64,000 bases of DNA from Flavobacterium sp. NG2. GTDB lineage: Bacteria > Bacteroidota > Bacteroidia > Flavobacteriales > Flavobacteriaceae. The stretch covers positions 4,032,001 through 4,096,000 of the forward strand of contig NZ_CP139420.1 in the NCBI RefSeq assembly GCF_034119845.1. Reading direction: 5' to 3'. The position numbers were made by a program, and so were the translations under genes. The notes under the pieces were generated by a model that was not told where the DNA came from, did not search any database, and was given only the letters and a program-made list of their open reading frames with translations. The stretch's first letter is position 1. Every line of letters starts with the position of its first letter. Of this stretch, positions 6,197 to 57,902 are shown in pieces.

Positions 6197-6218
6197 TAAG
6201 TATAACTACGTATATTTG
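6197..6218 (+). promoter_or_regulatory. nirB promoter: 16-bp TACGTA dyad overlapping the -7 box
   Basis: TAAGTATAACTACGTA (6197-6212) matches TAMGTA-N4-TACKTA exactly. Its last two bases are the first two of a perfect -7 box TATATTTG (6211-6218). A second partial copy, TACGTAATACTTA, follows at 6220-6232. No TTG element lies at the usual -33 distance; the nearest upstream one (6176-6178) is 32 bp away. The ATG of nirB is 25 bp after the -7 box. The rest of 6010-6196 is AT-rich with one lone TACGTA half-site at 6009. Confidence 0.75.
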
Positions 6219-6243
6219 CTACGTAATACTTAATAATGATATT

Positions 6244-8751
6244 ATGATTAAAATAATAGTAGTCGGAAACGGCATGGTGGGATACAAATTTTGCGAAAAA
6301 TTTATATCAAAATCTGGACAGGAAAAATATCAAATTACCGTATTTGGTGAAGAACCAAGACGCGCTTATGATCGTGTTCACCTAAGTGAATACTTTACAG
6401 GAAAAACAGCTGACGATTTATCAATGTCGACTGCCAACTGGTACGAAGAGAATAATATCATTTTAAATACTTCTGAGTTAGTTACCGATATTCATAAAGA
6501 AACTAAGACTATAACGACTCATCTTGAAAAAACTCATACTTACGACTACTTAGTTCTAGCAACTGGTTCAGCTGCTTTTGTACCTCCTATTGATGGAGTA
6601 GAAAAAGAAGGTGTTTTTGTTTACAGAACCATCGAAGATCTTGACGCTATTATGGCATATGCCAAAAAAATAAAACAAAACGGCGCAACAGAAGCAGCTG
6701 TACTAGGTGGAGGTTTATTAGGTCTTGAAGCAGCTAAAGCGGTACGTGACCTAGGATTAAATCCACATGTAGTAGAATTTGCTCCTCGATTAATGCCAAG
6801 ACAATTAGACAAAGGTGCTAGTAATATGCTTCGTTCAAAAATCGAAGAATTAAACATTAAAATCCACCTAAGTAAATCTACTCAATTCATCGATGGTGAA
6901 GAGGAGATTACAGGAATGATGTTTGAAGAAGAAGAATTGCTAAAAGTAGACATGTTAGTAATTTCTGCAGGTATTAAACCTCGTGATGAACTAGGAAAAG
7001 CTTGCGGTCTAGAAGTTGGCGTAAGAGGCGGTATCGTGGTTAACAACAAAATGCAAACCTCAGATCCTTCGATTTTTGCCATTGGAGAAGTAGCTCTTTA
7101 CAATCACATGATTTATGGTTTAGTAGCTCCAGGTTACGAAATGGCCGATGTAGCTGCTGAACAAATTCTAGAAGGAGACAAAACAATGAGAGAGACAATT
7201 GATATGTCTACTCAATTGAAGTTAATCGGTGTGGAAGTAGCTAGTTTTGGAGACCCATTTATCGAGCACCAAGACGGAACACCTATTATATATGAAAACA
7301 AAGTAAGCGGAATCTACAAAAGAATCAATATCTCAAAAGACGGAACCAAACTTCTTGGAGGTATCTTAGTAGGAGATTCTAGCGATTACAATACCCTATT
7401 CCAAATTTATAGCAACGGAATGGCTATCCCTAAAAACCCTGAAGATTTAATTTTAGGAGCAAGAGGTGGCGAAGCATCTGCTATAGGAAGTGCAATGGAT
7501 TTACCGGATACTGCTGTAATTTGTTCTTGTGAAAATGTTACAAAAGGAGCTATCTGTTGTTCTATCACTGACGGTACTTGCGAAACTTTTGGTGATGTTG
7601 CCAAATTAACCAAAGCCACTTCAGGTTGTGGAGGTTGTAAACCAATGGTAGTTGACTTAGTAAAAGCAGCACAAAAATCATTAGGTAAAGAAGTAAAAGA
7701 TACCGTTTGTGAACACTTTGCTTACACTCGTCAAGAATTATACGATATTGTAAAAATCAACAAATTCACCAATCACAATGAAGTTCTAGGAACTGTTGGA
7801 AAAGGAGATGGTTGCGAAGTTTGTCGCCCTGTATTATCTTCTATCTTCTCTAGTATCTATAACGACACAGCCAACAAACACGTTACTTCACAAGATTCAA
7901 ATGATAGATTCTTAGCTAATATTCAACGTAACGGAACCTACTCAGTTGTTCCAAGAATGGCTGGTGGTGAAGTAACTGCCGAAAAATTAATCGCTATTGG
8001 TGAAGTTGCCAAAGAATACGGTTTATACACTAAAATTACAGGTGCACAACGTGTGGATTTATTTGGTGCCGAACTAAATGATTTACCTGCAATTTGGAAA
8101 AAATTAATCGATAATGGTTTTGAAAGTGGACACGCTTACGGAAAATCATTAAGAGCTGTAAAAAGTTGTGTAGGTAATGCTTGGTGTCGTTACGGAATGG
8201 ACGACAGTACAACATTAGCTATCGAATTAGAAAACCGTTACAGAGGAATCCGTTCTCCACACAAATTAAAAGGAGGAGTTTCTGCTTGTATTCGTGAATG
8301 CGCCGAGGCAAGAGGAAAAGACTTTGGAGTGATTGCTGTTGAAGGTGGTTGGAACTTATACATCTGTGGAAACGGTGGAGCGAATCCAAAACATGCAGTT
8401 CTTTTAGCTGAAACAATCGACAAAGAAACTGTGTTCAAATACATGGATCGTTTCCTAATGTACTACATCCGTACGGCAGGACCATTAGTTAGAACTTCTA
8501 CTTGGTTAGAAAAACTAGAAGGTGGTATTGATTATTTAAAAGATGTGGTTATCAATGACAGTTTAGGAATCAATGAAACTCTTGAAGCTGAGATGCAACA
8601 ATTAGTGGACACTTTCGAATGCGAATGGAAACAAGCAATTGAAGACCCTGAAATGATGAAACGTTTTAGTCATTTTACCAACTCTGACGACCGTGATGAC
8701 AATATCGAATACATCCCACTTAGAGACCAAAAAATGCCTAAAGCTTGGTAA
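6244..8751 (+). CDS. nirB: assimilatory nitrite reductase (NADH), large subunit
   Basis: An 835-residue cytoplasmic enzyme that reduces nitrite to ammonium with NADH. In order: FAD/NAD(P)H-binding domain (about 1-310, starting IIVVGNGMVG), rubredoxin-reductase-like C-terminal domain (about 315-390), BFD-like [2Fe-2S] domain (C427, C429, C462, C465), a second cysteine-containing linker (about 495-545), NIR/SIR ferredoxin-like half domain (about 555-620) and the siroheme/[4Fe-4S] domain, whose ligands are C642 and C648 (CVGNAWC) and C682 and C686 (CIREC). All cofactor cysteines are present and the length is typical. nirD follows about 100 bp downstream. The promoter carries the 16-bp dyad shared by the nitrate genes. 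Confidence 0.97.
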   Translation: MIKIIVVGNGMVGYKFCEKFISKSGQEKYQITVFGEEPRRAYDRVHLSEYFTGKTADDLSMSTANWYEENNIILNTSELVTDIHKETKTITTHLEKTHTYDYLVLATGSAAFVPPIDGVEKEGVFVYRTIEDLDAIMAYAKKIKQNGATEAAVLGGGLLGLEAAKAVRDLGLNPHVVEFAPRLMPRQLDKGASNMLRSKIEELNIKIHLSKSTQFIDGEEEITGMMFEEEELLKVDMLVISAGIKPRDELGKACGLEVGVRGGIVVNNKMQTSDPSIFAIGEVALYNHMIYGLVAPGYEMADVAAEQILEGDKTMRETIDMSTQLKLIGVEVASFGDPFIEHQDGTPIIYENKVSGIYKRINISKDGTKLLGGILVGDSSDYNTLFQIYSNGMAIPKNPEDLILGARGGEASAIGSAMDLPDTAVICSCENVTKGAICCSITDGTCETFGDVAKLTKATSGCGGCKPMVVDLVKAAQKSLGKEVKDTVCEHFAYTRQELYDIVKINKFTNHNEVLGTVGKGDGCEVCRPVLSSIFSSIYNDTANKHVTSQDSNDRFLANIQRNGTYSVVPRMAGGEVTAEKLIAIGEVAKEYGLYTKITGAQRVDLFGAELNDLPAIWKKLIDNGFESGHAYGKSLRAVKSCVGNAWCRYGMDDSTTLAIELENRYRGIRSPHKLKGGVSACIRECAEARGKDFGVIAVEGGWNLYICGNGGANPKHAVLLAETIDKETVFKYMDRFLMYYIRTAGPLVRTSTWLEKLEGGIDYLKDVVINDSLGINETLEAEMQQLVDTFECEWKQAIEDPEMMKRFSHFTNSDDRDDNIEYIPLRDQKMPKAW

Positions 8752-8770
8752 TCCCAACAAACAAAAGAAT

Positions 8771-8850
8771 TCAAAAATAGTAAACACAACCTTTCCAATC
8801 TCAACTCCTGACAAAAGGAGTTGAGTAGAGGAAATCAAAAATAGTAAACA
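8771..8850 (+). repeat. 16-bp direct repeat enclosing a hairpin between nirB and nirD
   Basis: TCAAAAATAGTAAACA occurs at 8771-8786 and again at 8835-8850, the second copy ending on the A of the nirD start codon. Between them lies a hairpin with perfect 9-bp arms TCAACTCCT (8801-8809) and AGGAGTTGA (8816-8824), flanked by a further TTTCC/GGAAA pair. There is no T run after it, so it looks more like an mRNA stability or small inserted element than a terminator. Confidence 0.8.
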
Positions 8851-9227
8851 TGGAAAACGTACTAACTCAATACCAATCAGTTGCTCTAAACGATGTTAAA
8901 GTATGGTTCAAAGCAGGAAAAACTTCAGATTTCCCAGCTGATGGTGGCGGATGTGTTAAATACAAAAACAAACAAATCGCCGTAATCAATTTCGAAAGAA
9001 GAAATGAATGGTATGCTTGTCAAAATGTATGTCCTCATAAAATGGAAATGGTACTATCAAGAGGAATGATTGGTTCTGCAGAAGACACACCTAAAATTGC
9101 TTGTCCTATCCATAAAAAAACTTTTTCATTAAAAGACGGAAGCAATTTAAGTGGTGACGATTTAAAAATCGCTACTTATCCAGTAAAAATCGTTGAAGGT
9201 GAAGTATTGATTGGGTTTATTGAATAA
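8850..9227 (+). CDS. nirD: nitrite reductase small subunit, Rieske-like
   Basis: A 125-residue Rieske-fold subunit of the NADH nitrite reductase. Unlike E. coli NirD, which lacks the cluster ligands, this protein keeps both Rieske boxes: C61-P-H63 (CPHK) and C85-P-I-H88 (CPIHKKTF), so it should bind a [2Fe-2S] cluster, as seen in assimilatory-type enzymes. It lies about 100 bp after nirB in the same direction, separated by a hairpin flanked by a direct repeat, and most likely shares the nirB transcript. It ends 35 bp before the DUF4202 gene. Confidence 0.94.
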   Translation: MENVLTQYQSVALNDVKVWFKAGKTSDFPADGGGCVKYKNKQIAVINFERRNEWYACQNVCPHKMEMVLSRGMIGSAEDTPKIACPIHKKTFSLKDGSNLSGDDLKIATYPVKIVEGEVLIGFIE

Positions 9228-9262: not shown

Positions 9263-9850
9263 ATGACTACAACACCTTTTCAAAAAGCCAGCCAATGGAT
9301 TGATGCCGAAAACGCTCAAGACCCTAATATAGAAATTCACGAATCCATAAGTCATCCAAAAGAACTATTATACTCTAATAGAATGTTTGATAGACTTATG
9401 GATTTTTGTCCTTCTGCCTCAGAAGAAGTCCAAATTGCAGCCAAAGCCCAACATATTTGCCGTTGGAAAATCGCACGAGAATCCTACCCTATGGATCGCG
9501 TTGGTTATTTAAGATGGAGAGAAGAATTGAAAAAATTTCACGCAAAACTAACTGCTGAAATTCTAGAAAAAGCAGGATACGACCAAAGTTTTATCGACAG
9601 AGTTTGTTTTCTGATTGAAAAAAAACTACTCAAAAAAGACGCCGAAACACAATTACTAGAAGACGTCATTTGCTTAGTATTCTTAGAATATTACCTAGAG
9701 CCATTTGTTGAAAAACACGACAAAGAGAAATTAAAAAATATCATCCTAAAAACTTGGAATAAAATGTCTGAAAAAGGACACCAAGCGGCTTTAAAAATCA
9801 ATTATAGCCCAGCAAATTTAGACTTGATAAAAGAAGCTCTCGGATTGTAA
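9263..9850 (+). CDS. DUF4202 domain-containing protein
   Basis: A 195-residue soluble, mostly helical protein of the DUF4202 family. Conserved blocks are AQHICRWKI (about 74-82), YPMDRVGYLRWR, and LEDVICLVFLEYYL near residue 135; the conserved His, Arg and Asp residues suggest an enzyme or ligand-binding protein, but no reaction is known to me. Genes of this family recur beside nitrite and nitrate assimilation genes, which matches its place here between nirD and the nitrate sensor kinase. The kinase gene starts only 4 bp downstream, so the two are almost certainly co-translated. Confidence 0.85.
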   Translation: MTTTPFQKASQWIDAENAQDPNIEIHESISHPKELLYSNRMFDRLMDFCPSASEEVQIAAKAQHICRWKIARESYPMDRVGYLRWREELKKFHAKLTAEILEKAGYDQSFIDRVCFLIEKKLLKKDAETQLLEDVICLVFLEYYLEPFVEKHDKEKLKNIILKTWNKMSEKGHQAALKINYSPANLDLIKEALGL

Positions 9851-9854: not shown

Positions 9855-11663
9855 ATGAAAAAAGACACCTCAGAAACAGCGAATAGCCTCAACTTCAAAA
9901 AGCTAAAACAGCGCTATATTTTTGCCTTAGTCACTATTGCTATTACAGTAATTTTAAGCCAAATGTTAATCCAATACAACATTAACACCCAGCTTAATGA
10001 CTCTCGGTTAATAAACATCTCTGGAAAACAAAGAATGTTAAGCCAAAAATTAGTCAAAGAGATTTTGATACTGAATGCTGTTTCTGATGCTCCCAAAACA
10101 AAGCAACAAATTTTCAACATAAAAGAAACTCTATCTATTTGGCAATCCACACAAATAGCTTTGCAAAACGGAGATGATAATCTTCAATTCCCAAAAGAGC
10201 AAACCAAAGAACTCAAACAACTATACATCAATATTAGCCCAAATTTCGACACCATAGTTTCAACTACAAACGAAATTTTAAACCAGCACAAACTAAGCGG
10301 AAGCCCTATACGTAAACCGCAACTAATTCAAACAGTATTAGACAACCAAGTCATTTTTCTAAAAAAAATGAACCAAATTGTAGGGCAATATGAAAAAGAA
10401 GCGTTTTACAAAGTAACCCTTCAGCGCAATACTGAATATGGTATTTTATTTTTCACCCTACTCGTTTTACTACTCGAACTACAGTTCATTTTTAAGCCTA
10501 CTAATAAAAAAATAGAACAGCTTATCTCTAAACTTTTAGTTTCAGAAAAAAAAGCACTCAAATTAGCATACGACACCGAAATTATTAGCGAACAAAAAGA
10601 GAACTCCGTTAAAGAGCTCAAATCTTTGAATTATGCTATGGAAAATACATTATTGTATTGCCGAATTTCGAATGACGGAAGCATTATCCATATAGGAGAT
10701 AAATTTGCAAAACTCATCAATTATAGTAGTTTTCATGCCGACAAGAAATTCTCCGAAGCACTTACTTCTATTGAAAAAGAACAACTCTTTATAGACCGTA
10801 TTATAAAAGAGAAACAAAAAAGTGGATGGCAAGGCGAACTTAAAATCACTAATCCAAACAACGAACCACTTTGGCTTGACCTCTCTATGATACCCGTTAC
10901 TATTCGAAAGGAAGAATCGGAATTACTAATCATTTGTTTTGATATTACCATCCGTAAAACAGCCGAACAAGAAGTCGAAAGACTAAATGCTGAAAATATA
11001 GCTGAAAAAATAAACCAACAAAAAATTATCTCTAGCAAAATTGTAGAAAACCAAGAAAACGAACAAAACAGAATTGCTAGAGAAATTCATGACGGAATTG
11101 GACAAATGTTAACAGGCTTGAAATTTAGCCTTGAAAGCATCAACTTAGACGACAAAGAAAAGTCTGCTCAAAAAATTGAATACCTAAAGAAACTGTCACT
11201 CGACATCATCAAAGGTGTACGTACCGCTACTTTCAATTTGATGCCACCCGAATTAAGCGATCATGGTATCGTTTCCTCATTAGGGAAATTGACACTAGAA
11301 CTATCCAAACTTACTGGGAAAAACATTCTTTTTTACAACAAAAGTGACTTTGACCAAAGATTAGATTCTTTAATCGAAATCAACCTTTACCGTTTGACTC
11401 AAGAAGCCATCAACAATGCTATAAAATATGCCGAATCTACGCATATCATTGTACAACTTACACATAGCCCAACCTTACTAAGTGTTACAATAGACGATAA
11501 TGGAAAAGGATTTGACGTTTCCAAAGCTGAGAAAAACAAAACGAGCGAATCAGGAATGGGATTGCTATTTATGAAAGAACGAATTCAATACATTAACGGT
11601 CGTATCTTTTTTAATTCTATTCCAGGAGAAGGAACACGAATTACCTTTAATATTCCTATTTAG
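9855..11663 (+). CDS. NarX-like nitrate/nitrite sensor histidine kinase
   Basis: A 602-residue membrane kinase. Helix 1 spans about 24-43, a periplasmic sensor domain about 44-192 contains ISGKQRMLSQ (S56-Q64 region), resembling the nitrate-binding P-box of NarX/PilJ-type sensors, and helix 2 spans about 193-213. A coiled linker and a PAS/PAC domain (about 262-372) follow, then a HisKA_3 dimerisation domain with H412 in REIHDGIGQML and an HATPase domain with N-box EAINNAIKY and G-boxes DDNGKGFD and GMGLLF. HisKA_3 kinases pair with NarL/FixJ regulators, and one is encoded next (11863). The PAS insertion is absent from E. coli NarX. Nitrate sensing is inferred from the P-box and context. Confidence 0.9.
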   Translation: MKKDTSETANSLNFKKLKQRYIFALVTIAITVILSQMLIQYNINTQLNDSRLINISGKQRMLSQKLVKEILILNAVSDAPKTKQQIFNIKETLSIWQSTQIALQNGDDNLQFPKEQTKELKQLYINISPNFDTIVSTTNEILNQHKLSGSPIRKPQLIQTVLDNQVIFLKKMNQIVGQYEKEAFYKVTLQRNTEYGILFFTLLVLLLELQFIFKPTNKKIEQLISKLLVSEKKALKLAYDTEIISEQKENSVKELKSLNYAMENTLLYCRISNDGSIIHIGDKFAKLINYSSFHADKKFSEALTSIEKEQLFIDRIIKEKQKSGWQGELKITNPNNEPLWLDLSMIPVTIRKEESELLIICFDITIRKTAEQEVERLNAENIAEKINQQKIISSKIVENQENEQNRIAREIHDGIGQMLTGLKFSLESINLDDKEKSAQKIEYLKKLSLDIIKGVRTATFNLMPPELSDHGIVSSLGKLTLELSKLTGKNILFYNKSDFDQRLDSLIEINLYRLTQEAINNAIKYAESTHIIVQLTHSPTLLSVTIDDNGKGFDVSKAEKNKTSESGMGLLFMKERIQYINGRIFFNSIPGEGTRITFNIPI

Positions 11664-11862: not shown

Positions 11863-12519
11863 ATGAGCAATATCATTCGAGTAGTTCTAGCAGACGACCA
11901 TGTATTCGTAAGAGACGGAGTAAAATCCTTGTTAGAATCGGAAGAAAATATCGTCGTTGTTGGAGAAGCTACTGACGGTCAAGAAGCTTTAACAGTGGTA
12001 GAAGAGCACAAACCAGATTTATTAATCATCGATATTAGAATGCCTCATCTTACAGGAATCGAGGTGGTGGACAAGCTACGTAAAGCAAACAATTTTGTCA
12101 AAACAATTGTTTTATCGATGCATGATTCCGAAGAATACGTGCTTAAATCAATTAATGCAGGTGCTGACGGATACTTACTAAAAGGATCTAGTAAAGAAGA
12201 ATTCTTAAAAGCACTACATACTGTTACTAATGGAGGTAAGTATTTCACAGGAGACATTTCATCTATCTTAATCAATCAATTATCTAATCCATCTGCGGTT
12301 GAAGCAAAAAGTACGATGGCAGAAGAATTAACGATAACCAAAAGAGAAAAAGAAATTTTAAAGCTTTTACTCTCAGGCAAAGGAAACAAAGAAATTGCCG
12401 AAACCTTAGACATCAGTAAACGTACAGCCGAAGTACACCGCTTTAATCTGATGAAAAAACTAAAAGTCAAAAACCTAATGGAGCTCTCAAATAAAGCTAC
12501 AGAATATTCATTAATATAA
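11863..12519 (+). CDS. NarL/FixJ-family response regulator
   Basis: A 218-residue regulator with a receiver domain (D11/D12 acidic pair, phosphoacceptor D57 in LLIIDIRMP, switch lysine in YLLKG) and a LuxR-type HTH at the C-terminus (about 155-215). The recognition helix reads ISKRTAEVHRFNLMKKL. Compared with E. coli NarL, the valine DNA contact is kept but Lys188 and Lys192 are replaced by Glu and Phe, so its target sequence should differ from the NarL heptamer. It is the natural partner of the NarX-like kinase ending 199 bp upstream and probably controls nitrate/nitrite genes of this region. Confidence 0.94.
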   Translation: MSNIIRVVLADDHVFVRDGVKSLLESEENIVVVGEATDGQEALTVVEEHKPDLLIIDIRMPHLTGIEVVDKLRKANNFVKTIVLSMHDSEEYVLKSINAGADGYLLKGSSKEEFLKALHTVTNGGKYFTGDISSILINQLSNPSAVEAKSTMAEELTITKREKEILKLLLSGKGNKEIAETLDISKRTAEVHRFNLMKKLKVKNLMELSNKATEYSLI

Positions 12520-12872: not shown

Positions 12873-12949
12873 AATATTCAAAAATTACGTATATCAACTA
12901 AATTACCTAAATTAAAATACGTATTAATACGTAACTATACTTATATTTG
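12873..12949 (+). promoter_or_regulatory. narK-type gene promoter with tandem TACGTA dyads
   Basis: A perfect 16-bp palindrome TACGTATTAATACGTA (12918-12933) overlaps a second dyad TACGTAACTATACTTA (12928-12943), which in turn overlaps the -7 box TATATTTG (12942-12949) by two bases, the same geometry as at nirB. An upstream element at 12873-12894 resembles one before the response regulator. The start codon is 22 bp after the -7 box. Confidence 0.8.
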
Positions 12950-12971: not shown

Positions 12972-14450
12972 ATGGAAAATACTAGTTCATTATCAAAATC
13001 ACATAGAATGTTATTTCTTAACACCTTGGCTTTCACAGTATGCTTTGCATGTTGGACGCTAAATGGTGTACTAGTTACTTACTTAGTAGACAAAGGAATT
13101 TTCAACTGGAGCGTTGTTCAAGTTGGATGGCTACTTGGAATTCCAATTTTAACAGGTTCCATCATGCGTTTACCTATTGGTATTTTAACAGATAAATACG
13201 GCGGAAAATATGTTTTCGCCACCTTACTTCTCCTTTGCTCTATTCCACTTTTCCTTTTACCATTAGCCGATAGCTTTTTCATGTTTGCTATCTTAAGCTT
13301 TTTATTTGGAATGGTCGGAACCAGTTTTGCTGTTGGTATTGGATACACTTCAATTTTTTATCCAAAAGAATGGCAAGGTAGAGCATTGGGGATTTTTGGA
13401 ATGGGAAATGCAGGAGCAGCAATAACAACCTTTTTGGCTCCCTCATTACTTAACCATTTCTCTATTGAAGATCCTCAAAACGGCTGGAAACTACTACCTA
13501 TCGCCTATGGAGTAACCTTATTAGTAATAGGAATATTATTCATCTTATTTGCTGAAAATAAAAAATTAGAAAAATCAAACCGTACCATACCTCAAATGTT
13601 AACGACTCTAAAAAGTCCACGTGTTTGGCGTTTTGGAGCCTACTATTTCTTAGTATTCGGTTGTTTTGTAGCTTACTCACAATGGCTACTACCTAACTTC
13701 ATGAACGTATACAGCACTAGTCTTGTAATGGGTGGAATGTTTGCTACTATGTTCAGTTTGCCATCTGGTGTGATTCGTGCTTTTGGTGGTTATTTATCAG
13801 ATAAATTTGGTGCTCGAACTGTAATGTATTGGGTACTAAGTTCCTCAGTAGTATTAAGCTTTTTATTGATGATCCCAAAAATGGAAATTAAAACTGCTGG
13901 ACCTGGAGTAATGTCTGGTAAAAAAGGAATCGTAACAGCAGTATCCCCAACTAATGTTAGAGTAGACGATAAAGACTTTCCTATTGATGCTAAACCTGAA
14001 GCAATATCCGAAGGCAATATTTTCCCAACTAAATCCTCTTGGCAAAAAGTGATTGTCACTCAAAATCAAGAAGTGAACAAAAAAGAATTACTTGCCAAAG
14101 GTATTACCAGAATCAATTTTGACGCTAACATGTGGGTATATCTAGTTTTAGTTATCTTAATTGGTATATCATGGGGAATCGGAAAAGCAGCTGTTTATAA
14201 GCACATCCCTGAATATTTCCCTACTGAGATAGGAGTTGTAGGTGGTATGGTTGGATTACTAGGTGGTCTAGGAGGATTTTTTGGTCCAATCATCTTTAGT
14301 TACCTACTAACCACAACAGGAATATGGTCAAGTTCATGGATATTTGTATTATTATTCTCTGCCATTTGTTTAATCTGGATGCATATTACCATCACCAATA
14401 TGATGAATGAAAAACAACCAGCAATGGCTAAAGAAATTGAAAAAAAATAA
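12972..14450 (+). CDS. narK: NarK/NNP-family nitrate/nitrite MFS transporter with extra domain
   Basis: A 492-residue, 12-helix inner-membrane carrier of the nitrate-nitrite porter family. Both nitrate signatures are visible, GNAGAAITTFLAP in helix 5 and GLLGGLGGFFGP in helix 11, as are the substrate arginines in helices 2 (SIMRLPIG) and 8 (GVIRAFGGYL). It is about 80 residues longer than simple family members because of a soluble, beta-rich insert (about 303-384) between helices 9 and 10, on the periplasmic side if the N-terminus is cytoplasmic. It probably imports nitrate or exchanges nitrate/nitrite for the pathway encoded here, and its promoter carries the shared dyad twice. Confidence 0.93.
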   Translation: MENTSSLSKSHRMLFLNTLAFTVCFACWTLNGVLVTYLVDKGIFNWSVVQVGWLLGIPILTGSIMRLPIGILTDKYGGKYVFATLLLLCSIPLFLLPLADSFFMFAILSFLFGMVGTSFAVGIGYTSIFYPKEWQGRALGIFGMGNAGAAITTFLAPSLLNHFSIEDPQNGWKLLPIAYGVTLLVIGILFILFAENKKLEKSNRTIPQMLTTLKSPRVWRFGAYYFLVFGCFVAYSQWLLPNFMNVYSTSLVMGGMFATMFSLPSGVIRAFGGYLSDKFGARTVMYWVLSSSVVLSFLLMIPKMEIKTAGPGVMSGKKGIVTAVSPTNVRVDDKDFPIDAKPEAISEGNIFPTKSSWQKVIVTQNQEVNKKELLAKGITRINFDANMWVYLVLVILIGISWGIGKAAVYKHIPEYFPTEIGVVGGMVGLLGGLGGFFGPIIFSYLLTTTGIWSSSWIFVLLFSAICLIWMHITITNMMNEKQPAMAKEIEKK

Positions 14451-14840: not shown

Positions 14841-14872
14841 TAAGTATATGTACGTAATTTTAGCTAATTTTG
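14841..14872 (+). promoter_or_regulatory. TACGTA dyad and -7 boxes before the first FNR-like gene
   Basis: TAAGTATATGTACGTA (14841-14856) matches the shared 16-bp dyad. A -7 box TAATTTTG lies at 14865-14872; a weaker TAATTTTA (14855-14862) overlaps the dyad by two bases in the same way as at nirB. The gene starts at 14901, so autoregulation is possible. The rest of 14535-14840 shows no gene. Confidence 0.7.
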
Positions 14873-14900: not shown

Positions 14901-15605
14901 ATGAATCGCATCCATACCGACTGTACAAGCTGTATCAATACAAGTTGTTTCATCAAAAAACATTTACACCTAGAAAAGATGCAAGATTTTATTTTGCAAA
15001 AAAATACTTTTCCATGTAAAAAAGGACAGCAATTCATGATTGAAGGAGCACCAACACAAGGATTATATTTTCTTCAAAAAGGAAAAGTAAAAATCTTAAA
15101 AACAGGAATTTACGGTCGTGAACAAATTGTACGTTTAGCACAAGAAGGAGACACCATTGGATTTAGAGGTTTCGGGACAAGCAACCGCTACTTAATTGGA
15201 GCTTCCGCCCTTGAAGATACCGTACTGTGTAATTTTAGTAACGAAATCATGCAGGAAATTCTAAAAACCATACCAGAATTCACCTATGACATGATGCTTT
15301 TTTATGCACAAGAGCTTAATAAAAGTGAGAACAGAGTTAAAAAAATTGCCCAAATGAATGTTCGAGAACGCGTTATCGATACCTTATTGCATTTGTTTAA
15401 AAAATTCGGACAAACCAACCACCTCATCAACGTTAATCTTAGCCGAAAAGAAATCGCCGACTTCGCTGGAACTACAGACGAACAAGTAACTAGAATTTTT
15501 TCAAGCCTTAAAAAAGAAGGATTGATCAATATTGTAGGTAAAAAAATCAGTCTGTTAGAAATCCCTAAACTACAAGCTGAAATCGCGGAACACCGTCAGT
15601 TTTAG
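14901..15605 (+). CDS. FNR-like Crp-family regulator, paralogue 1
   Basis: A 234-residue Crp/Fnr regulator: N-terminal cysteine segment, cNMP-type beta-roll (about 30-125), dimer helix (about 125-160) and HTH_Crp (about 165-225). Cysteines C8, C11 and C16 (CxxCx4C) plus C110, which aligns with FNR Cys122 (ALEDTVLC versus ALETSMVC), reproduce the FNR [4Fe-4S] ligand set; C39 is extra. The recognition helix TTDEQVTRIFSSL keeps the Glu and Arg of FNR (ExxSR) with Thr in place of Ser. It is closely related to the product at 56954 over its whole length. It lies between narK and the porin, and likely responds to oxygen or nitric oxide. Confidence 0.93.
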   Translation: MNRIHTDCTSCINTSCFIKKHLHLEKMQDFILQKNTFPCKKGQQFMIEGAPTQGLYFLQKGKVKILKTGIYGREQIVRLAQEGDTIGFRGFGTSNRYLIGASALEDTVLCNFSNEIMQEILKTIPEFTYDMMLFYAQELNKSENRVKKIAQMNVRERVIDTLLHLFKKFGQTNHLINVNLSRKEIADFAGTTDEQVTRIFSSLKKEGLINIVGKKISLLEIPKLQAEIAEHRQF

Positions 15606-16188: not shown

Positions 16189-16214
16189 TAAGTAAATATA
16201 CGTACGTACATTTG
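16189..16214 (+). promoter_or_regulatory. porin/nrtA promoter with TACGTA dyad
   Basis: TAAGTAAATATACGTA (16189-16204) matches the 16-bp dyad; the -7 box TACATTTG is at 16207-16214, two bases after the dyad. TACGTACATTTG (16203-16214) is nearly the same 12-mer as at nirB (TACGTATATTTG). The porin starts 45 bp after the -7 box. Confidence 0.75.
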
Positions 16215-16258: not shown

Positions 16259-17524
16259 ATGAAGTTACTTAAAACAATTTCTTTTAGCTTATTAGGTTTA
16301 ATTACCGCTAGTACGTATGCACAAGAGTTTAGCTCTGACATTCAAATTAGACCTCGTTACGAATATACTAACGGTTTTGGTACTTTACTAACTCCTACCA
16401 CTGAACATACTTCATTTATAGGAAACCGTACAAGAGTAAACTTCAATTATGGAGACGCCAAATTAAAAATGAAAGTAGCGTTGCAAAACGTACGCACATG
16501 GGGAGCAGTAAACAACCTTACAGGAGGTATTTCAAATGCAACGAATAGTTTTGTGTTATTTGAAGGATGGGCACAATATAGTTTTTCAGACAAATGGAGT
16601 ACCAAAGTAGGACGTCAACCATTATCATACGATAATCAAAGAATCCTTGGAGGTTTAGATTGGGCAAATCAAGGACGTAGTTTTGATGCCGCTTTAATAA
16701 AATTCAAAGGAGCAAAAAGTCAATTAGATTTAGGATTTGCTTTAAATGCTGATTCAGAAGCAAAAGTTGCCCCAGCAACGCCTTTTGCAACCGATTTCAA
16801 AGACATGCAATATGCTTGGTACCACACCAACATCAAAAAATTAGGAGTTAGTTTCCTAGCCTTAAACTTAGGAAGAGAGTATTTAAAAACACCTTCTGAA
16901 ATAGAGACTAATTACTCTCAAACATTAGGTTCTTATGCTAATTATGCTGGTAAAAAAGTAACTTTTGACTTTAGTTTATACGGACAAACAGGTAAAATTG
17001 GTAAAAATGAAGTTTCAGCATGGGAAACAGCAGCTAATTTAGGCTATGCTTTTACACCAAAATTCAAAGCTACTTTAGGATATGAATTCTTATCTGGTAA
17101 AGATCAAACATCAACTTCAACAGTGGTGAAATCATTCAACCCTATATTTGGTACCAACCACGCTTTCAATGGTTTTATGGATTACTTCTACGTAGGAAAC
17201 CACGGTGGATCAGTAGGATTACAAGACCTTACACTGAAACTAGATTTCCCTATCAAAAAAGTAAACTTATCTGTTGCTCCTCATTTATTTTACGCTGCAA
17301 ACGAATTGGCTGCAACGGATGATAAATACTTAGGAACAGAACTAGACATCACAGCTGTTTACAAAGTGTACAAAGACATCACTCTAGTGGCTGGATACTC
17401 TCAAATGTTTGCTTCAGATTCAATGGTTGCTCTTAAAGGCGGTACAGGTCTGAACGATACTACAAACAACTGGGCGTATGTGATGGTAAACATCAACCCA
17501 CAAATCTTTTCAAGCAAAAAATAA
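16259..17524 (+). CDS. alginate_exp-family outer-membrane beta-barrel porin
   Basis: A 421-residue protein with a type I signal peptide (about 1-21, ending STYAQ) and alternating amphipathic beta strands throughout, matching the alginate-export (AlgE-like) barrel family in size and start (DIQIRPRYEY). The mature protein is a predicted outer-membrane channel. It is followed after 26 bp by the nitrate-binding lipoprotein gene and lies between a nitrate regulator and the nitrate ABC operon, so anion (nitrate/nitrite) uptake is the likely role; the substrate is inferred from position alone. Confidence 0.88.
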   Translation: MKLLKTISFSLLGLITASTYAQEFSSDIQIRPRYEYTNGFGTLLTPTTEHTSFIGNRTRVNFNYGDAKLKMKVALQNVRTWGAVNNLTGGISNATNSFVLFEGWAQYSFSDKWSTKVGRQPLSYDNQRILGGLDWANQGRSFDAALIKFKGAKSQLDLGFALNADSEAKVAPATPFATDFKDMQYAWYHTNIKKLGVSFLALNLGREYLKTPSEIETNYSQTLGSYANYAGKKVTFDFSLYGQTGKIGKNEVSAWETAANLGYAFTPKFKATLGYEFLSGKDQTSTSTVVKSFNPIFGTNHAFNGFMDYFYVGNHGGSVGLQDLTLKLDFPIKKVNLSVAPHLFYAANELAATDDKYLGTELDITAVYKVYKDITLVAGYSQMFASDSMVALKGGTGLNDTTNNWAYVMVNINPQIFSSKK

Positions 17525-17550
17525 TTAGGAAACAATAAAACAAAAACAAT

Positions 17551-18930
17551 ATGAAAAAACTAATTTTTAAAATATCCTTACTTGCCATAACCGCTGTTAG
17601 TGTTATGAGCTGTAAAAAAGACGCAAAAAAAGAAGGTAGCACTGAAGCCGATACTACTACGGCTTCAAAAACCGAAAAATTAGCCTTAGAGAAACCACAG
17701 GTAACTTTAGGATTTATCAAATTGACCGATATGGCACCATTGGCCATAGCCAAAGAAAAAGGATTCTTTGAAGACGAAGGTTTATTTGTAACACTTGAGG
17801 CGCAATCCAACTGGAAAAACGTTTTGGACCGTGTGATTGACGAACAAATTGATGGTTCGCACATGCTAGCAGGTCAACCGATAGCAGCAGCTGTTGGTTT
17901 TGGAAGACAGGCCAAATTAGTAACTACTTTCTCAATGGACTTAAACGGAAATGCCATTACAGTTTCTAACGATGTTTGGTCAAAAATGAAACCTTCATTA
18001 CCATTGAAAGACGGAAAACCAGTGCACCCTATTAGTGCTAGTGCCTTACTTCCTGTAATCAAAGAATACAAAAATGCCAACAAGCCCTTCAAAATGGGTA
18101 TGGTATTCCCAGTATCAACACACAACTACCAATTAAGATATTGGTTAGCTGCTGGAGGAATTAACCCTGGAATGTACACGAAAGACAACGTACAAGGGAT
18201 GATCAATGCAGAGGCATTACTTTCTGTAACACCTCCACCACAAATGCCAGCGACTCTTGAAGCAGGAACCATCAACGGATACTGTGTAGGAGAACCTTGG
18301 AACCAACAAGCGGTTGCTAAAGGTATTGGAGTTCCAGTAATTACGTCAAATGACATTTGGAAAAACCACCCTGAAAAAGTATTCGTAATGACGAAAGCTT
18401 TTGTGGAGAAAAATCCAAATACTGCAATTGCGATTACTAAAGCTTTAATTAGAGCAGGTAAATGGTTAGATGATCCAAAAAACAGAGCTGAAGCTGTAAA
18501 AATCTTATCTAGTCCAGCTTATGTTGGTGCTGATGAAGTAGTTTTAGGAAACTCAATGACAGGTACTTTCGAATATGAAAAAGGAGACAAGCGTGACGAA
18601 CCAAACTTTAATGTGTTCTTTAACAACAACGCTACTTACCCTTTCTACTCTGACGGAATCTGGTACATGACTCAAATGAGACGTTGGGGACAAATTACTG
18701 AAGCACAACCAGCAGAATGGTATGCATCAAAAATCAAAGAAGTTTACAAACCTGAAATTTGGACTAAAGCAGCTGAATTGTTAGTTAAAGAAGGAAACTT
18801 AGATCAAGCAGATATTCCTACTACCGATGGTTACAAACCAGCTACAACCGAATTCATCGACGGATTGAGTTATGATGGTAAAAAACCATTAGAATACATC
18901 AAAAGCATGAAAATTGGTAACAAAAATTAA
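17551..18930 (+). CDS. nrtA: nitrate ABC transporter substrate-binding lipoprotein
   Basis: A 459-residue NrtA/CmpA-family periplasmic binding protein. A lipobox VMSC places the lipidated cysteine at residue 21, followed by a charged, threonine-rich linker (about 22-50) before the binding domain ([23 protein letters not shown]). Conserved NrtA stretches include [27 protein letters not shown] and [14 protein letters not shown]. It probably hands nitrate to the NrtB permease encoded next. The paralogue at 57930 has an ordinary signal peptide instead, so the two importers differ in how the binding protein is anchored. Confidence 0.94.
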
Positions 18931-18945
18931 ATAATTACTATAGTT

Positions 18946-18968
18946 GAGGATGCTACTCCAGCATCCTC
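18946..18968 (+). promoter_or_regulatory. 8-bp hairpin between nrtA and nrtB
   Basis: GAGGATGC and GCATCCTC form a perfect stem around a 7-nt loop, 16 bp after nrtA, without a following T run. It may protect the 3' end of nrtA mRNA or lower transcription into nrtB, raising binding protein over permease. The remaining 200 bp before nrtB hold no gene. Confidence 0.6.
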
Positions 18969-20259: not shown

Positions 20260-20353
20260 TTTATTTGAAGAGACTTAGAGGCTAAGGCACTAAGAGACTA
20301 AGAACCTCAGTGCCTGAGCAACTCAGAACCTCAGAACCTAAAAAAGAAAAATC

Positions 20354-53271: not shown

Positions 53272-56200
53272 TTAACCGCATTTCGCTAATAATTCTTTAA
53301 CCTCCGTTTTACAACTACCACAACCGAGACCTGCTCCTGTTGATTTACATAATTCGGTAAAATTAGTAGTTCCTCCTTTGATGGCTTCTTCGATGTTTCC
53401 ACTTCCTACTTGACTACAAGAACAAACTAGTTTTCCGATTACTGGTTTGGCTTGCGAACCACTTCCTCTAAGAAGTAAATTACGCTTATCAGACAACTCA
53501 ATTTTGCTTTCAATCATGGTTTTGAATTCGGCAAACTCATTTTTGTCCCCCATTAATATAGCTCCAACTAATAAATCGTCTTTGACTACACATTTTTTAT
53601 AGTATCTCTTTTTCAAATCAGAGAAGACAATTTCTTCATAAGAATCATCGTTTTCAGGGATTTCAATTTGTCCAATACTACAAAGGTTAATATCCTCAAG
53701 TTTTAAGATATTCATTAAAACCGAACCACTGTAATAACTACTAATATCTCCTGCAATAAAGTTAGCCAAAATATCAGCCTGTTCTTCAGCTGCTGAGGTA
53801 ATTCCGAACAATTGGTTGTTGTATTCTGCAATCTCACCAATAGCAAAAATATTCGATTGAGAGGTTTGTAAATACTGATTTACTTTTACGCCACGACCAC
53901 AGGCAAGTCCTGCTTCTTTGGCGATTTCGATATTTGGGATAGTTCCAATAGCATATACGATTGCATTTGCCGTAAGGATTCGTCCACTTTTCAAACCAAT
54001 TTCAATCTCGTTTGGATTATCAGTTTCAAAAACGGTGCTCACCTCATTATCAAAATAAATTTGAATATCTCTTAACTGCACTTCTTCGGCCAATAACTTA
54101 CAAGAAATACGGTCTAATTGACGTTCCATCAATCGAGAGGCACGTTGAACAATAGTGATTTTTACTTTTTTATGTTTTAAAGCTGCTGCTAATTCAAGTC
54201 CTAACAAACCACCACCTACAATAACCACATGCTGTTCTTCGGCAGGGAGATTGGTGTTGTCAAGATAGTTTTTCAAACGGTCAGCATCTTCTTTTTTACG
54301 CATCGTAAAACGACCTGGTAAATGCAATTGAGCATTTTCTGGAACAAAAGGACGACTTCCTGTTGCCATAATCAATGAGTCAAAAGTATGCGTTTCGCCT
54401 TTGCTATCCGTAATCGTATTTCCTTTGATGTCAAGATTGTCAATAGACACATTCGATTTCAAAGTGATATTCAGCTTCTTTAATGCGTCGGCTTTTATCT
54501 TTTGTAAACTTTCCCATGAAAGTTCATTGGTTACATACTCTGGTAATAATACGCGGTTATAAAAAGGATTTTCTTCATTAGAGAAAACGATAATTTCGTC
54601 CTCTTTATTGATTTCTCTATAATTCTGAATAAATCTAAAAGCTGCTGCTCCTGCTCCTACTACTGCAATTTTCTCAAATGATTTTTCGTATTTGTTTACT
54701 GAAACCGTTGTAAATTTAAAATCAGGTTCTTTTGAGATAGGGTCTATAAGGGTATTTGTCAAGTTGTTCGTTCTATTCAAATCCTTATTTAATTGTTTTC
54801 CCCAATGCATTGGCAAGAAAACCACTCCTTCTTTAATGGTGTCGGTTATTTTTGCTTTAACACGAACGTCACCACTTTTACTATGAACCTCAACCACATC
54901 TCCATCTTCAATTCCCGCTTTAAAAGCATCGATTGCATTGATTTCCAACATCGGACTAGGAATATGAGACATCAATCGAGCTACTTTTCCAGTCTTAGTC
55001 ATCGTATGCCATTGGTCTCTAATACGTCCCGTTGTTAAAATTAATGGATATTTATCCGAAGGCGCTTCAGAGTTATTATCAATAGAAACGGGCAAATTGA
55101 ATATTGCCTTTTGCGAAGGCGTATAAAACTTTTTATCCGTAAACAAACGAGGTGTTCCTGGATGTCCATAATCTGGTACAGGCCATTGAAAAGTACCTTC
55201 ATTTTTTAAACGATTGTAATTTAAAAACGAAATATCAATTTTGGTATTCTTCGTTAAGGCGCAGTATTCTTTATATATTTCTTCAGTTGAATTGAAATTA
55301 AAACCTGAAAAATTCATTTTTTGAGCAAAACGAGTAAGGATTTCAACATCCGATAAAGCTTCACCTGGAGCCTCTATTCCTTTTGGTAAATAAGAAATAC
55401 GTCTTTCTGAGTTGGTCATCGTTCCTTCTTTTTCTAACCAACCTGCTGCAGGCAACAATAAATCAGCATACTTTGTAGTGTCTGATTTATGTGAAATATC
55501 TTGAACCACTACGAATTTAGCATTTTCAAGTGCTTTTTCTACGCGGCGTACATCTGGCAAACTTACAAGAGGATTGGTACAAATAATCCAAACCGCTTTC
55601 ATCTTACCCGATTCTAAAGCATCAAACATTTCAGTAGCTGTCAATCCTGGTTTTTCTGAAATTTCATCCACACCCCAAAAATCAGCTACTTCTTGACGAT
55701 GAACAGGATTAGCCAATTCTTTATGAACTGCTAATAAGTTAGCCATTCCCCCTACTTCACGTCCACCCATTGCGTTAGGCTGACCTGTCAATGAGAAAGG
55801 TCCTGAACCCGGTTTCCCTACGTGACCTGTTAATAAAGAAAGGTTTAATAAGGCGGTGTTTTTATCTACACCTATCACACTTTGATTTAACCCCATTGCC
55901 CATAATGACAAGAACCCTTTAGCTTTGGCAATAATTTCGGCTGCTTGTTTTATTTCGCTAATAGAAACTCCACATAATTGAGAAGCTTTTTCTAACGAAG
56001 TTGCGACTACTAATTCTTTATAGGCTTGGTAATTTTCGGTATGATTTCGAATAAAATCGTTATCAACATATCCTTTATCAATCAAGCATTTAGCGATTGC
56101 GTGATATAAGTAGATATCAGAACCAGGAAGAATTTGCAAATGCATATCGGCTGCTAATGCCGAATCTGTTTTTCTTGGGTCAACAACAATTATTTTAGTT

Positions 56201-56787
56201 TTAGGATTTTTCTCTTTGTGCTGTTCGATTCTTCTAAAAAGAATGGGATGGCACCAAGCTGGATTGGCCCCCGTAATCAAGAAAGTATCAGCTAATTCGA
56301 TATCTTCATAGGCGATAGGCACTGAGTCTTCACCAAATGTTTTCTTGTAACCAACTACTGCTGAACTCATACAAAGTCTCGAGTTGGTATCTATATTATT
56401 GGTTTTTAAAAAACCTTTAACGAGTTTGTTTGCTAAATAGTACTCTTCCGTCAAACATTGTCCTGAGATGTAAAAACCAACACTATCAGGCCCATGTTTT
56501 TTGATGATTGAAGAAAAGACAGCTGCAGCACGATCCAAGGCATCATCCCAACTTACTCGCTCTTTAGGATGGGATTTACTCCATCTCATTTCGGGATATA
56601 AAATTCGGTCCGAAGTATCGTTAACAACATAGTGCAGATTCATTCCTTTAGAACAAAGCATTCCTCTATTTACAGGGTGGTCTTTATCTCCTTTTACGCT
56701 TACTCCATTTTTAGAATCATTGGTTACAATTATTCCGCACCCTACACCACAATAGGAACAAGTCGTTTTTATTTCTGAATTTTGCAT
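53272..56787 (-). CDS. nasA: assimilatory nitrate reductase fused to NADH flavoprotein and [2Fe-2S] domain
   Basis: A 1171-residue cytoplasmic fusion. Residues 1 to about 690 form the molybdopterin nitrate reductase: [4Fe-4S] ligands C10, C13, C17 and C45, the molybdenum ligand C139 (RLCMSSAVVGY) and a molydopterin dinucleotide-binding end (ILTTGRIRDQWHTMTKTGK). A second part (about 705-1110) is a NirB/NasB-like FAD/NAD(P)H oxidoreductase starting VVGAGAAAFRFI. The last about 50 residues are a BFD-type [2Fe-2S] domain (CSC... GLGCGSCKTE). Together they can pass electrons from NADH to nitrate in one polypeptide. No signal peptide, so it is assimilatory. The promoter shares the 16-bp dyad with the divergent FNR-like gene. 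Confidence 0.95.
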   Translation of the reverse strand: MQNSEIKTTCSYCGVGCGIIVTNDSKNGVSVKGDKDHPVNRGMLCSKGMNLHYVVNDTSDRILYPEMRWSKSHPKERVSWDDALDRAAAVFSSIIKKHGPDSVGFYISGQCLTEEYYLANKLVKGFLKTNNIDTNSRLCMSSAVVGYKKTFGEDSVPIAYEDIELADTFLITGANPAWCHPILFRRIEQHKEKNPKTKIIVVDPRKTDSALAADMHLQILPGSDIYLYHAIAKCLIDKGYVDNDFIRNHTENYQAYKELVVATSLEKASQLCGVSISEIKQAAEIIAKAKGFLSLWAMGLNQSVIGVDKNTALLNLSLLTGHVGKPGSGPFSLTGQPNAMGGREVGGMANLLAVHKELANPVHRQEVADFWGVDEISEKPGLTATEMFDALESGKMKAVWIICTNPLVSLPDVRRVEKALENAKFVVVQDISHKSDTTKYADLLLPAAGWLEKEGTMTNSERRISYLPKGIEAPGEALSDVEILTRFAQKMNFSGFNFNSTEEIYKEYCALTKNTKIDISFLNYNRLKNEGTFQWPVPDYGHPGTPRLFTDKKFYTPSQKAIFNLPVSIDNNSEAPSDKYPLILTTGRIRDQWHTMTKTGKVARLMSHIPSPMLEINAIDAFKAGIEDGDVVEVHSKSGDVRVKAKITDTIKEGVVFLPMHWGKQLNKDLNRTNNLTNTLIDPISKEPDFKFTTVSVNKYEKSFEKIAVVGAGAAAFRFIQNYREINKEDEIIVFSNEENPFYNRVLLPEYVTNELSWESLQKIKADALKKLNITLKSNVSIDNLDIKGNTITDSKGETHTFDSLIMATGSRPFVPENAQLHLPGRFTMRKKEDADRLKNYLDNTNLPAEEQHVVIVGGGLLGLELAAALKHKKVKITIVQRASRLMERQLDRISCKLLAEEVQLRDIQIYFDNEVSTVFETDNPNEIEIGLKSGRILTANAIVYAIGTIPNIEIAKEAGLACGRGVKVNQYLQTSQSNIFAIGEIAEYNNQLFGITSAAEEQADILANFIAGDISSYYSGSVLMNILKLEDINLCSIGQIEIPENDDSYEEIVFSDLKKRYYKKCVVKDDLLVGAILMGDKNEFAEFKTMIESKIELSDKRNLLLRGSGSQAKPVIGKLVCSCSQVGSGNIEEAIKGGTTNFTELCKSTGAGLGCGSCKTEVKELLAKCG

Positions 56788-56845: not shown

Positions 56846-56899
56846 TAAGTATTTTTACGTATAAATACGTATTTTAGATTCTTTTTTTTGATACTTTTG
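56846..56899. promoter_or_regulatory. divergent nasA/FNR-like gene control region with two overlapping dyads
   Basis: TAAGTATTTTTACGTA (56846-56861) and TACGTATAAATACGTA (56856-56871) overlap by one TACGTA. Towards nasA, TATTTTTA overlaps the dyad edge as a weak -7 box (minus strand); towards the FNR-like gene, TACTTTTG (56892-56899) is a full -7 box. One bound regulator here could control both genes. Confidence 0.75.
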
Positions 56900-56953: not shown

Positions 56954-57658
56954 ATGAAAGAAGAATTTGCAATTTGCGGTAGCTGTATTAATGAAAATTG
57001 TTTCATCAAGAAACACATTCATTTAGAACAAATGAAAAAATTTGTCGAAAAAAAGCAAAGTTTTCTTTGTAAAAAATCCCAACAATTCATCATGGAAGGT
57101 GCGCCAATTCAGGGATTATATTTTATTTACAAAGGTAAAGTAAAAACGGTTAAAACTGGAATTAATGGGAAAGAACAAATCGTTCGTTTTACTACCAATG
57201 GTGACACAATTGGTTTCAGAGGATTTGGAACAAGTAAGCGCTATTTCATTGGTGCTTATGCCATAGAAGACACCATTTTATGCAATTTCAGCAATGACGA
57301 TATGTTACAGATTCTTCGAGAAGTGCCAGAACTAACATTTGACATGATGCTCTTTTATGCTGAGGAACTCCATAAAAGTGAGAACAACATCCGCAAACTA
57401 GCACAGATGAACGTTAGAGAAAGAGTGATTGATACCTTACTCTATATTCATCGAAAGTTTGGTCAAAACAATACCGTAATAGCTATTGATTTATCTCGAA
57501 AAGAAATCGCTGATTTTGCAGGAACTACTGAGGAACAGGTAATTCGAGTACTTTCGAATCTTAAAAAGGAAGATTTAATCCATACTGTAGGAAAGCGCAT
57601 TGGCTTAACAGCTGTCGAAAAATTAAAAGCCGAAATCAAAGAACACAATTACTTTTAA
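56954..57658 (+). CDS. FNR-like Crp-family regulator, paralogue 2
   Basis: A 234-residue paralogue of the regulator at 14901, colinear over its whole length. Cysteines C8, C11 and C16 (CGSCINENC) and the internal cysteine in EDTILCNFSN reproduce the FNR [4Fe-4S] ligands; C39 is also kept. The recognition helix TTEEQVIRVLSNL keeps Glu and Arg but has Ile where FNR has Ser and paralogue 1 has Thr, so the two may differ in affinity. I used the ATG at 56954; a TTG at 56888 would add 22 untypical residues. It is transcribed away from nasA and towards the second nitrate importer. Confidence 0.93.
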   Translation: MKEEFAICGSCINENCFIKKHIHLEQMKKFVEKKQSFLCKKSQQFIMEGAPIQGLYFIYKGKVKTVKTGINGKEQIVRFTTNGDTIGFRGFGTSKRYFIGAYAIEDTILCNFSNDDMLQILREVPELTFDMMLFYAEELHKSENNIRKLAQMNVRERVIDTLLYIHRKFGQNNTVIAIDLSRKEIADFAGTTEEQVIRVLSNLKKEDLIHTVGKRIGLTAVEKLKAEIKEHNYF

Positions 57659-57755
57659 TAAAAACAAAATACGTAGTTTTTTCTTTGATTCACTCCCATA
57701 AACACTCAACTCTTCATACACTTCCATAGTTCACACTAAAGCTTATTTAATTTCA

Positions 57756-57784
57756 AAAGCCTCGTATTTACGGGGCTTTATTTA
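57756..57784 (+). terminator. terminator after FNR-like paralogue 2
   Basis: AAAGCCTCG pairs with CGGGGCTTT around TATTTA, followed by a T-rich tail. A lone TACGTA lies at 57670, before it. Confidence 0.8.
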
Positions 57785-57876
57785 TAATACCTGCGTTTTG
57801 TCATCTTTTTTGTCATCTTTTTAATGTTTTATCAAAGTATTAAAAAGGGATTTCTAGATGTTTTTTAGTTAGTACA

Positions 57877-57902
57877 TACGTATAAATACTTATGTAGATT
57901 TG
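57877..57902 (+). promoter_or_regulatory. second nrtA promoter with TACGTA dyad
   Basis: TACGTATAAATACTTA (57877-57892) matches the shared dyad; the -7 box TAGATTTG (57895-57902) follows two bases later, as at the porin promoter. The ATG is 28 bp downstream. Confidence 0.78.

Follow-up and report, generated by a model that had tools for sequence, protein, structure and literature searches.

A 16-bp dyad, TAMGTA-N4-TACKTA (TAMGTANNNNTACKTA), marks the promoters of two nitrate gene clusters in a 64,000-nucleotide stretch of the Flavobacterium sp. NG2 genome (RefSeq assembly GCF_034119845.1, contig NZ_CP139420.1, positions 4,032,001 to 4,096,000; hereafter, the window). The dyad is best described as an operator that serves a regulon dedicated to nitrate assimilation and is conserved in many relatives among the Flavobacteriia. 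Most likely, it is read by the NarL-type response regulator (RR) that is encoded together with nirBD, and not by the two FNR-like proteins that are encoded in the same clusters. The whole of this explanation, namely, a nitrate-assimilation operator with the NarL-type RR as the reader and a NarX-like sensor kinase as its partner, appears probable, and we hold it with good confidence.

Read on the opposite strand, the dyad pattern is unchanged, and matches on the two strands are the same sites. A preliminary description of the window had listed eight exact matches, at 6197, 12918, 12928, 14841, 16189, 56846, 56856 and 57877, and a rescan recovered all eight. The matches 12918/12928 and 56846/56856 form overlapping pairs with one half-site in common per pair, and the eight matches therefore make up six promoter regions, those of nirB, narK, FNR-like gene 1, the porin-nrtA1 unit, nasA/FNR-like gene 2 and nrtA2. 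Thus, as had been described, all the matches are located in front of nitrate genes of both clusters, and the copy at 12918 (TACGTATTAATACGTA) is indeed a perfect palindrome. The rough estimate of well under one chance match agrees with 100 dinucleotide shuffles of the window, in which the mean number of matches was 0.03 and the maximum was 1.

The complete genome (one contig, 4.15 Mb) contains 12 exact dyads, eight of these in the window, compared with two for the reversed control. Nitrate genes or cobA lie downstream of nine of the 12 dyads, so that the genome does not hold the many matches unrelated to nitrogen genes that were to be looked for. The four dyads outside the window are found before cobA, inside a coding sequence, in an intergenic region between other genes and at the start of an open reading frame (ORF). 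The cobA gene (named from sequence) encodes uroporphyrinogen-III methyltransferase, which serves to make the sirohaem of NirB, and its dyad and -7 box are arranged as they are at the nitrate promoters. The last of the four (L001:1501-1516) lies near the start of an unassigned 218-aa ORF that has no Pfam hit and no known link to nitrate.

For the relatives, contigs were scanned with the FNR pair, which yielded 111 relatives, and the best 80 loci were kept; these were picked by FNR similarity and include many close relatives, so that the counts are not independent. The 80 loci (1.54 Mb) contain 229 exact dyads, compared with two for the reversed control, and each of the 80 has at least one. The motif is also kept in 18 genomes that lack an FNR orthologue (see below), and the loss from orthologous promoters that would have spoken against a regulon is not seen. 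Together with the placement of the sites in the genome, this conservation supports the earlier proposal that the two clusters belong to one regulon.

Exact dyads were tallied within 300 bp upstream of ORFs with enough upstream sequence, in the window plus the 80 loci. A dyad was found upstream of narK in 21/21 cases, nrtA1 in 44/52, FNR-like gene 1 in 32/37, FNR-like gene 2 in 27/46, nirB in 7/8, the RR gene in 13/25, nasA in 14/40, porin in 15/56, cobA in 2/11 and nrtA2 in 1/10, the last figure being low in part because a porin gene often heads the nrtA2 unit. No dyad was found in this range upstream of nrtB1 (0/47), nrtC1 (0/48), nrtD1 (0/48), nirD (0/11), the DUF4202 gene (0/13), the kinase gene (0/19) or the rubredoxin-type gene (0/25); the sites are thus placed before the heads of transcription units. 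Not every dyad heads a unit, given that the RR gene, located 3' of the kinase gene, has its own dyad in about half of the loci (none in the window). Only two of the 229 dyads lie deep inside an ORF. All 23 globin-like ORFs of the 80 loci have a dyad in the 300 bp upstream (23/23). At L060:10923-14523, a globin gene follows the FNR gene, and between it and nrtA1 lie Tll0287-like, ferredoxin-type reductase and multihaem cytochrome genes; this gene group may serve in nitric oxide or nitrite handling. A dyad is also found inside the 5' part of nirB, as an exact copy in four loci of the genus of the window (L170:9075, L171:10955, L172:9026, L195:10162) and with one mismatch at 6537 in the window itself, and could reflect either a coding constraint or an internal operator.

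The regulators were surveyed in 299 genomes of the family, with the sets of orthologues defined by protein search. The FNR search showed a gap in the scores from 332.9 to 173.0 bits and identified an orthologue in 49 genomes; RR (E <= 1e-65) and nirB (E <= 1e-120) were each found in 67 of the 299. The 67 genomes are the same in both cases and include all 49 with FNR, which leaves 18 genomes with RR and no FNR orthologue (hereafter, RR-only). The mean number of dyads per genome (control in parentheses) is 7.94 (2.80) with both FNR and RR (n = 49), 5.17 (3.06) with RR only (n = 18) and 2.29 (2.01) with neither (n = 232). The stretches around the RR genes of these 18 genomes (19 in number, 375 kb in all) hold 59 dyads and no match of the control, and the dyads precede the same kinds of genes, nirB in 16/18 cases, nrtA1 in 6/6, narK in 10/12, cobA in 9/11, nasA in 12/19, the RR gene in 5/18 and porin in 3/14, with none upstream of nirD (0/16), the DUF4202 gene (0/14) or the kinase gene (0/14). 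Two of the 59 dyads lie inside called ORFs, the starts of which were judged too long. No ORF in these stretches matched the FNR-like proteins, and no DNA-binding protein other than RR was recognised in the clusters, where unlabelled ORFs remained unclassified.

From this pattern, we infer that RR binds the dyad. The NarX-like kinase would be expected to sense periplasmic nitrate or nitrite and to set the phosphorylation of RR; an RR dimer would bind the half-sites TAMGTA and TACKTA, one helical turn (10 bp) apart, and additional half-sites would tend to share one face of the helix. By a narrow preference over activation, RR would act as a repressor by covering the core promoter, and nitrate signalling would relieve the repression. 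The FNR-like genes would be members of the regulon, and the FNR-like proteins, at least in the marine genera, probably act via a separate dyad, ATG-N8-CAT, near -41.5.

The spacing of the half-sites fits helical phasing. There are 417 half-sites in 215 non-redundant regulon upstream regions (10.0 per kb, compared with 1.63 per kb in 463 others), and 101 pairs are spaced at 10 bp, compared with two at 9 and two at 11, with further clusters at 20-25, 30-35, 41-45 and 52-57 bp and troughs between these. A period of 11.0 fits the 249 pairs spaced 15-60 bp apart best (R 0.45, compared with 0.43 for 10.5), as estimated without a significance test. The free position of the half-site is A67/C33 at the FNR loci and A48/C52 at the RR-only loci.

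Given RR binding, the chance that the sign is repression by covering the core promoter is, in our estimate, about even. Repression is favoured because many dyads overlap the -7 box or the start site. Among 322 site-gene pairs (one dyad may count for two genes), the distance from the start of the dyad to a downstream -7 TA is 14 bp in 62, 24 bp in 20 and 18 bp in 15, and in 63 the dyad lies 15-17 bp after this TA; dyad and -7 box are fused at 61 of the 216 boxes of the regulon and at none of 254 others. The best fit is nrtA1 of the marine relatives, where the dyad directly follows the start site and has ATG-N8-CAT upstream of it, near -41.5. Binding of RR as an activator, also from unusual positions over the core promoter, is nearly as likely, and several observations count for it or against repression: -33 TTG is rarer at the regulon -7 boxes than elsewhere (18% vs 40%, summed over 11 offsets), the upstream half-sites are in helical phase, the dyads of FNR-like gene 2 in the window are at about -58 to -33 relative to the inferred start, and nitrate induction is the physiology to be expected. 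Activation sits poorly with the half-site ends that fall on the -7 TA in many promoters and with the marine nrtA1 dyad after the start site, where activators normally do not act.

The sign is also affected by a second RR system. Four loci from genera that lack the cluster (L183-L186), chosen for dyads in rows, carry three to six dyads each, mostly 145-159 bp apart, and in all four the rows adjoin a gene for a different LuxR-type RR (34-38% identical) and a gene for a 146-151-aa protein (a retropepsin-like protease in the one tested). In 17/17 dyads, a TAnnTTnRC box follows with its TA 31 bp from the dyad centre, which puts the centre at about -43.5, a place for an activator, if TAnnTTnRC acts as the -7 box. 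These fixed positions speak for activation and against repression. The repeat units continue with a conserved CTATTAAT stretch, followed by a terminator-like hairpin (by eye), and may each give a small transcript; no Rfam family matched the units, and a 28-base pattern of the conserved stretch was found in two of the ten genomes tried and not in the genome of the window. It could as well be true as not that a group of LuxR-type RRs in the Flavobacteriia has one operator language in common, that of TACGTA-type dyads, with the nitrate RR acting on core promoters and the second RR activating the repeat units (about 146-159 bp each) of a multi-copy small-RNA system that has not been described.

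A rival reading, in which the FNR-like proteins bind the dyad, autoregulate and control both clusters, was rejected on the evidence of the RR-only genomes and of ATG-N8-CAT. The dyads before FNR-like genes 1 and 2 speak for this reading, in loci that were chosen for FNR, and CRP/FNR sites also conserve a G five bases from the centre. We consider it improbable, given that the 18 RR-only genomes keep the dyads at the same kinds of genes and that five of these (G143, G177, G211, G218, G262) have no Crp/Fnr relative at E <= 1e-30. Furthermore, a different dyad is present at the FNR loci: the sequence ATG-N8-CAT, exactly at -36 from the -7 TA, occurs in 48 of 203 regulon boxes (38 nrtA1, 10 porin) and six of 307 others in FNR-bearing loci, compared with 0/61 and 0/37, respectively, in RR-only loci. 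In 69 aligned promoters with the TAMGTA dyad after the -7 box, which were chosen for this arrangement, the TG at -35/-34 and the CAT at -25 to -23 from the -7 TA are 94-97% conserved. In F. psychrophilum, the promoter box TAnnTTTG occupies -12 to -5 (PMC9723704). With the box so placed, the centre of ATG-N8-CAT falls at -41.5. A position near -41.5 is the place of FNR-type activators. ATG-N8-CAT was seen at nrtA1 promoters of FNR-bearing marine relatives, e.g. L044, L059 and L065, and the globin promoters have a CTG-N8-CAT form in the examples inspected; the window promoters have no exact ATG-N8-CAT at the -36 place. In the marine genera, ATG-N8-CAT is a likely, if putative, site of the FNR-like protein.

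Beyond the main sample, 20 other nirB loci of about 20 kb each were fetched, 13 from outside the family and seven from inside. No dyad is present in the nine out-of-family loci whose fetched stretch of about 20 kb holds no RR gene (an RR gene may lie elsewhere in these genomes); of the four out-of-family loci with an RR (L156-L159), the one with an RR 63% identical to that of the window (L158) has two dyads, and the other three are taken up below; inside the family, six of the seven loci have a dyad before nirB. A search for RR in 365 genomes of the class, from which 11 stretches were fetched, added two family loci with dyads (L195 and L196) and an out-of-family locus of 48% GC with an RR of 55% identity (L187), with two dyads, before the RR gene and porin. 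Helices of the dyad-associated RRs mostly read S-x-R-T-x-E-x-H-R-F/Y, and the co-variation of helix and dyad, over few points, is suggestive. At one locus from another family with no nearby RR (L160), a different, AAGTATTTG-type dyad was noticed by eye upstream of narK and nasA.

Several observations weigh against RR as the reader of this dyad. Exact dyads are missing from many promoters where these would be expected (nasA 26/40, porin 41/56, FNR-like gene 2 19/46), and a distant Crp/Fnr relative is encoded elsewhere in 13 of the 18 RR-only genomes. L156 (RR 52% identical) has no exact dyad, only five TACGTA half-sites with other spacing in the 160 bp before nirB; L157 (RR 42%) and L159 (RR 37%) have no dyad; L187 has none before nirB; and at L167, where nirB is accompanied by the kinase gene and which belongs to the family, there are near variants and no exact copy. 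Seven RRs of 39-50% identity with no nirB nearby (L188-L194) and the second RR of the window genome (L197, 41%) also lack dyads; these siteless RRs without nirB fit a specific reader, yet the RR fold alone is not enough. Finally, the assignment rests on genome comparison, and within the family RR and nirB always occur together, so that another factor travelling with the cluster, e.g. the DUF4202 protein or a distant regulator, could read the dyad. The identical RR and nirB sets make such cluster-linked factors inseparable within the family, and the DUF4202 gene is absent from the stretches of the siteless L157 and L159 and present at L158 and L187, which have dyads. Nevertheless, we judge this reading very doubtful: L160 has a DUF4202 gene, no RR and no TAMGTA dyad, and RR is the sole recognised DNA-binding protein of the RR-only clusters, unlabelled ORFs there being unclassified.

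Practically no credence is due to the dyad as a chance product of AT-richness or promoter composition, given that, although genomes without the cluster also hold matches at a mean close to their control and in some cases 8-19 each, the control counts for the window, the 80 loci and the RR-only stretches contradict it. In most of the 11 listed of the 14 multi-dyad genomes, repeated forms such as TACGTAGnnCTACGTA dominate; G156 has varied sites. Because dyads are abundant in some cluster-less genomes, the location of the dyads was considered along with their number. A match to the exact pattern is not diagnostic on its own, since some genomes without RR carry many other TACGTA-dyad sites. A promoter of an alternative sigma factor was also considered and rejected; the half-sites, 10 bp apart, are too close for two boxes, and the dyad also occurs downstream of -7 boxes.

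Table 1. Genes and operator sites of the two nitrate clusters in the window.
Feature	Position	Strand	Remarks
Dyad TAAGTATAACTACGTA before nirB	6197..6212	+	final TA shared with the -7 box TATATTTG (6211-6218)
nirB, nitrite reductase large subunit	6244..8751	+	head of nirB-nirD-DUF4202-kinase-RR; TIGR02374 1005.7 bits, cut-off 578.35
nirD	8850..9227	+	TIGR02378 95.9 bits, cut-off 74.65
DUF4202 protein	9263..9850	+	between nirD and kinase gene; PF13875 247.4 bits
NarX-like sensor kinase	9855..11663	+	PilJ, PAS, HisKA_3, HATPase; P-box LINISGKQRMLSQ with GxxR
NarL-type response regulator (RR)	11863..12519	+	receiver and LuxR/GerE helix-turn-helix; PF00072 102.5 bits, PF00196 69.3 bits
Two overlapping dyads before narK	12918..12943	+	three half-sites at 10-bp steps; -7 box TATATTTG at 12942
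narK-type nitrate/nitrite transporter	12972..14450	+	TIGR00886 179.3 bits, under cut-off 311.7
Dyad before FNR-like gene 1	14841..14856	+	-7 box TAATTTTG at 14865
FNR-like regulator 1	14901..15605	+	CxxCx4C plus C110
Dyad before porin-nrtA1BCD unit	16189..16204	+	-7 box TACATTTG at 16207; 1-mismatch copy at 16193
Porin, nrtA1, nrtB1, nrtC1, nrtD1	16259..22360	+	nrtC1, nrtD1 named from ORF sequences, without family call
nasA-type molybdopterin nitrate reductase	53272..56787	-	fused to pyridine-nucleotide reductase part
Two overlapping dyads, divergent nasA / FNR-like gene 2 region	56846..56871	.	
FNR-like regulator 2	56954..57658	+	65% identical to regulator 1; candidate -7 box TACTTTTG at 56892
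Dyad before nrtA2	57877..57892	+	-7 box TAGATTTG at 57895
nrtA2, nrtB2, nrtCD2	57930..61512	+	nrtB2, nrtCD2 named from ORF sequences, without family call

The genes from nirB to RR are in line (6244-12519) and are followed by narK, FNR-like gene 1 and porin-nrtABCD (Table 1). The closest solved relative of RR is NarL (1a04, E 6e-39), and the residues D11, D12, D57, S85 and K107, which we take to be those of the phospho-acceptor site, are invariant in the six aligned regulators; the RR scores are under the equivalog cut-offs for NarL (NF007935, 162.6 bits, cut-off 250) and NarP (NF007708, 132.9 bits, cut-off 343). The P-box of the window kinase is NISGKQRM; among 45 kinase ORFs of the loci, 34 have N.[AS]G..RM and 38 have the GxxR form, and seven lack an N-terminal P-box (L046, L086, L118, L120, L121, L128, L132), some perhaps shortened by the ORF calls. 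FNR-like regulator 1 is under the FNR cut-off (NF008365, 82.1 bits, cut-off 228). The cluster cysteines C8, C11, C16 and C110 are common to both FNR-like proteins of the window; a nine-row alignment, in which one row has a late start, shows only C16 and C110 among the four as invariant.

The gene after nasA (51772-53262) encodes a nitrite/sulfite reductase half-domain protein that carries rubredoxin at its C-terminus, and it often adjoins nasA in the relatives. In many loci, the DUF4202 gene retains its place between nirD and the kinase gene, and the literature searched yielded no paper naming DUF4202. Three Flavo-1 RNAs (RF01705), each scoring over the gathering threshold, are located at 22454-22594 (-), 33895-33974 (+) and 45341-45418 (+). 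Pairs of identical 16-mers at 59248/59426 (TAAGTCGCTTTGCTTA) and 23573/24699 (TTTGTAGAGTTACTTA), found as matches to the dyad with two mismatches, suggest local repeats.

What is known of the system is the kinase/RR pair, and the operator and the regulon appear to be new: in agreement with the preliminary description, the literature searched, with most subscription papers out of reach, gave no account of either in Bacteroidota. With these, the narHK/narRR kinases of Bacteroidetes gain a concrete, testable regulon and operator, two layers, of a NarL-type and an FNR-type regulator, are told apart at the promoters of a phylum with poorly mapped regulation, and nitrate-responsive transcription units are predicted in marine and soil Flavobacteriia.

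The system resembles E. coli NarX-NarL/NarQ-NarP in the NarX-like sensor domain, the HisKA_3 kinase, the LuxR-type RR and the nitrate/nitrite genes, including nirB. It differs in that its targets are genes of assimilation and transport, the dyad often lies over the -7 box, HAMP and GAF are not matched in the kinase and RR is under the NarL equivalog cut-off. The heptamer of NarL and NarP is TACYYMT (PMC4886647) and is arranged in 7-2-7 repeats (PMC2718512); the dyad is an inverted repeat of the same length (16 bp) and also begins and ends with TA, but the half-site here is TAMGTA (TA(A/C)GTA). The narHK/narRR pair of Bacteroidetes was covered in a 2021 review (PMC8199190), and that kinase, like the one described here, combines a NarX-like (PilJ) sensor domain with PAS, HisKA_3 and HATPase, has no HAMP or GAF-like domain and adjoins nitrate genes; the accessible part of the paper gives no operator or regulon and lists the role of the kinase across organisms as an open question. 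The likeness to FNR/CRP class II systems consists of the two FNR-like genes in the regulon and of ATG-N8-CAT near -41.5 in the marine relatives. The distance from G to C in ATG-N8-CAT is 9, as in TTGAT-N4-ATCAA. The TAMGTA dyad, unlike such class II sites, has different letters and a different position and is kept where there is no FNR orthologue.

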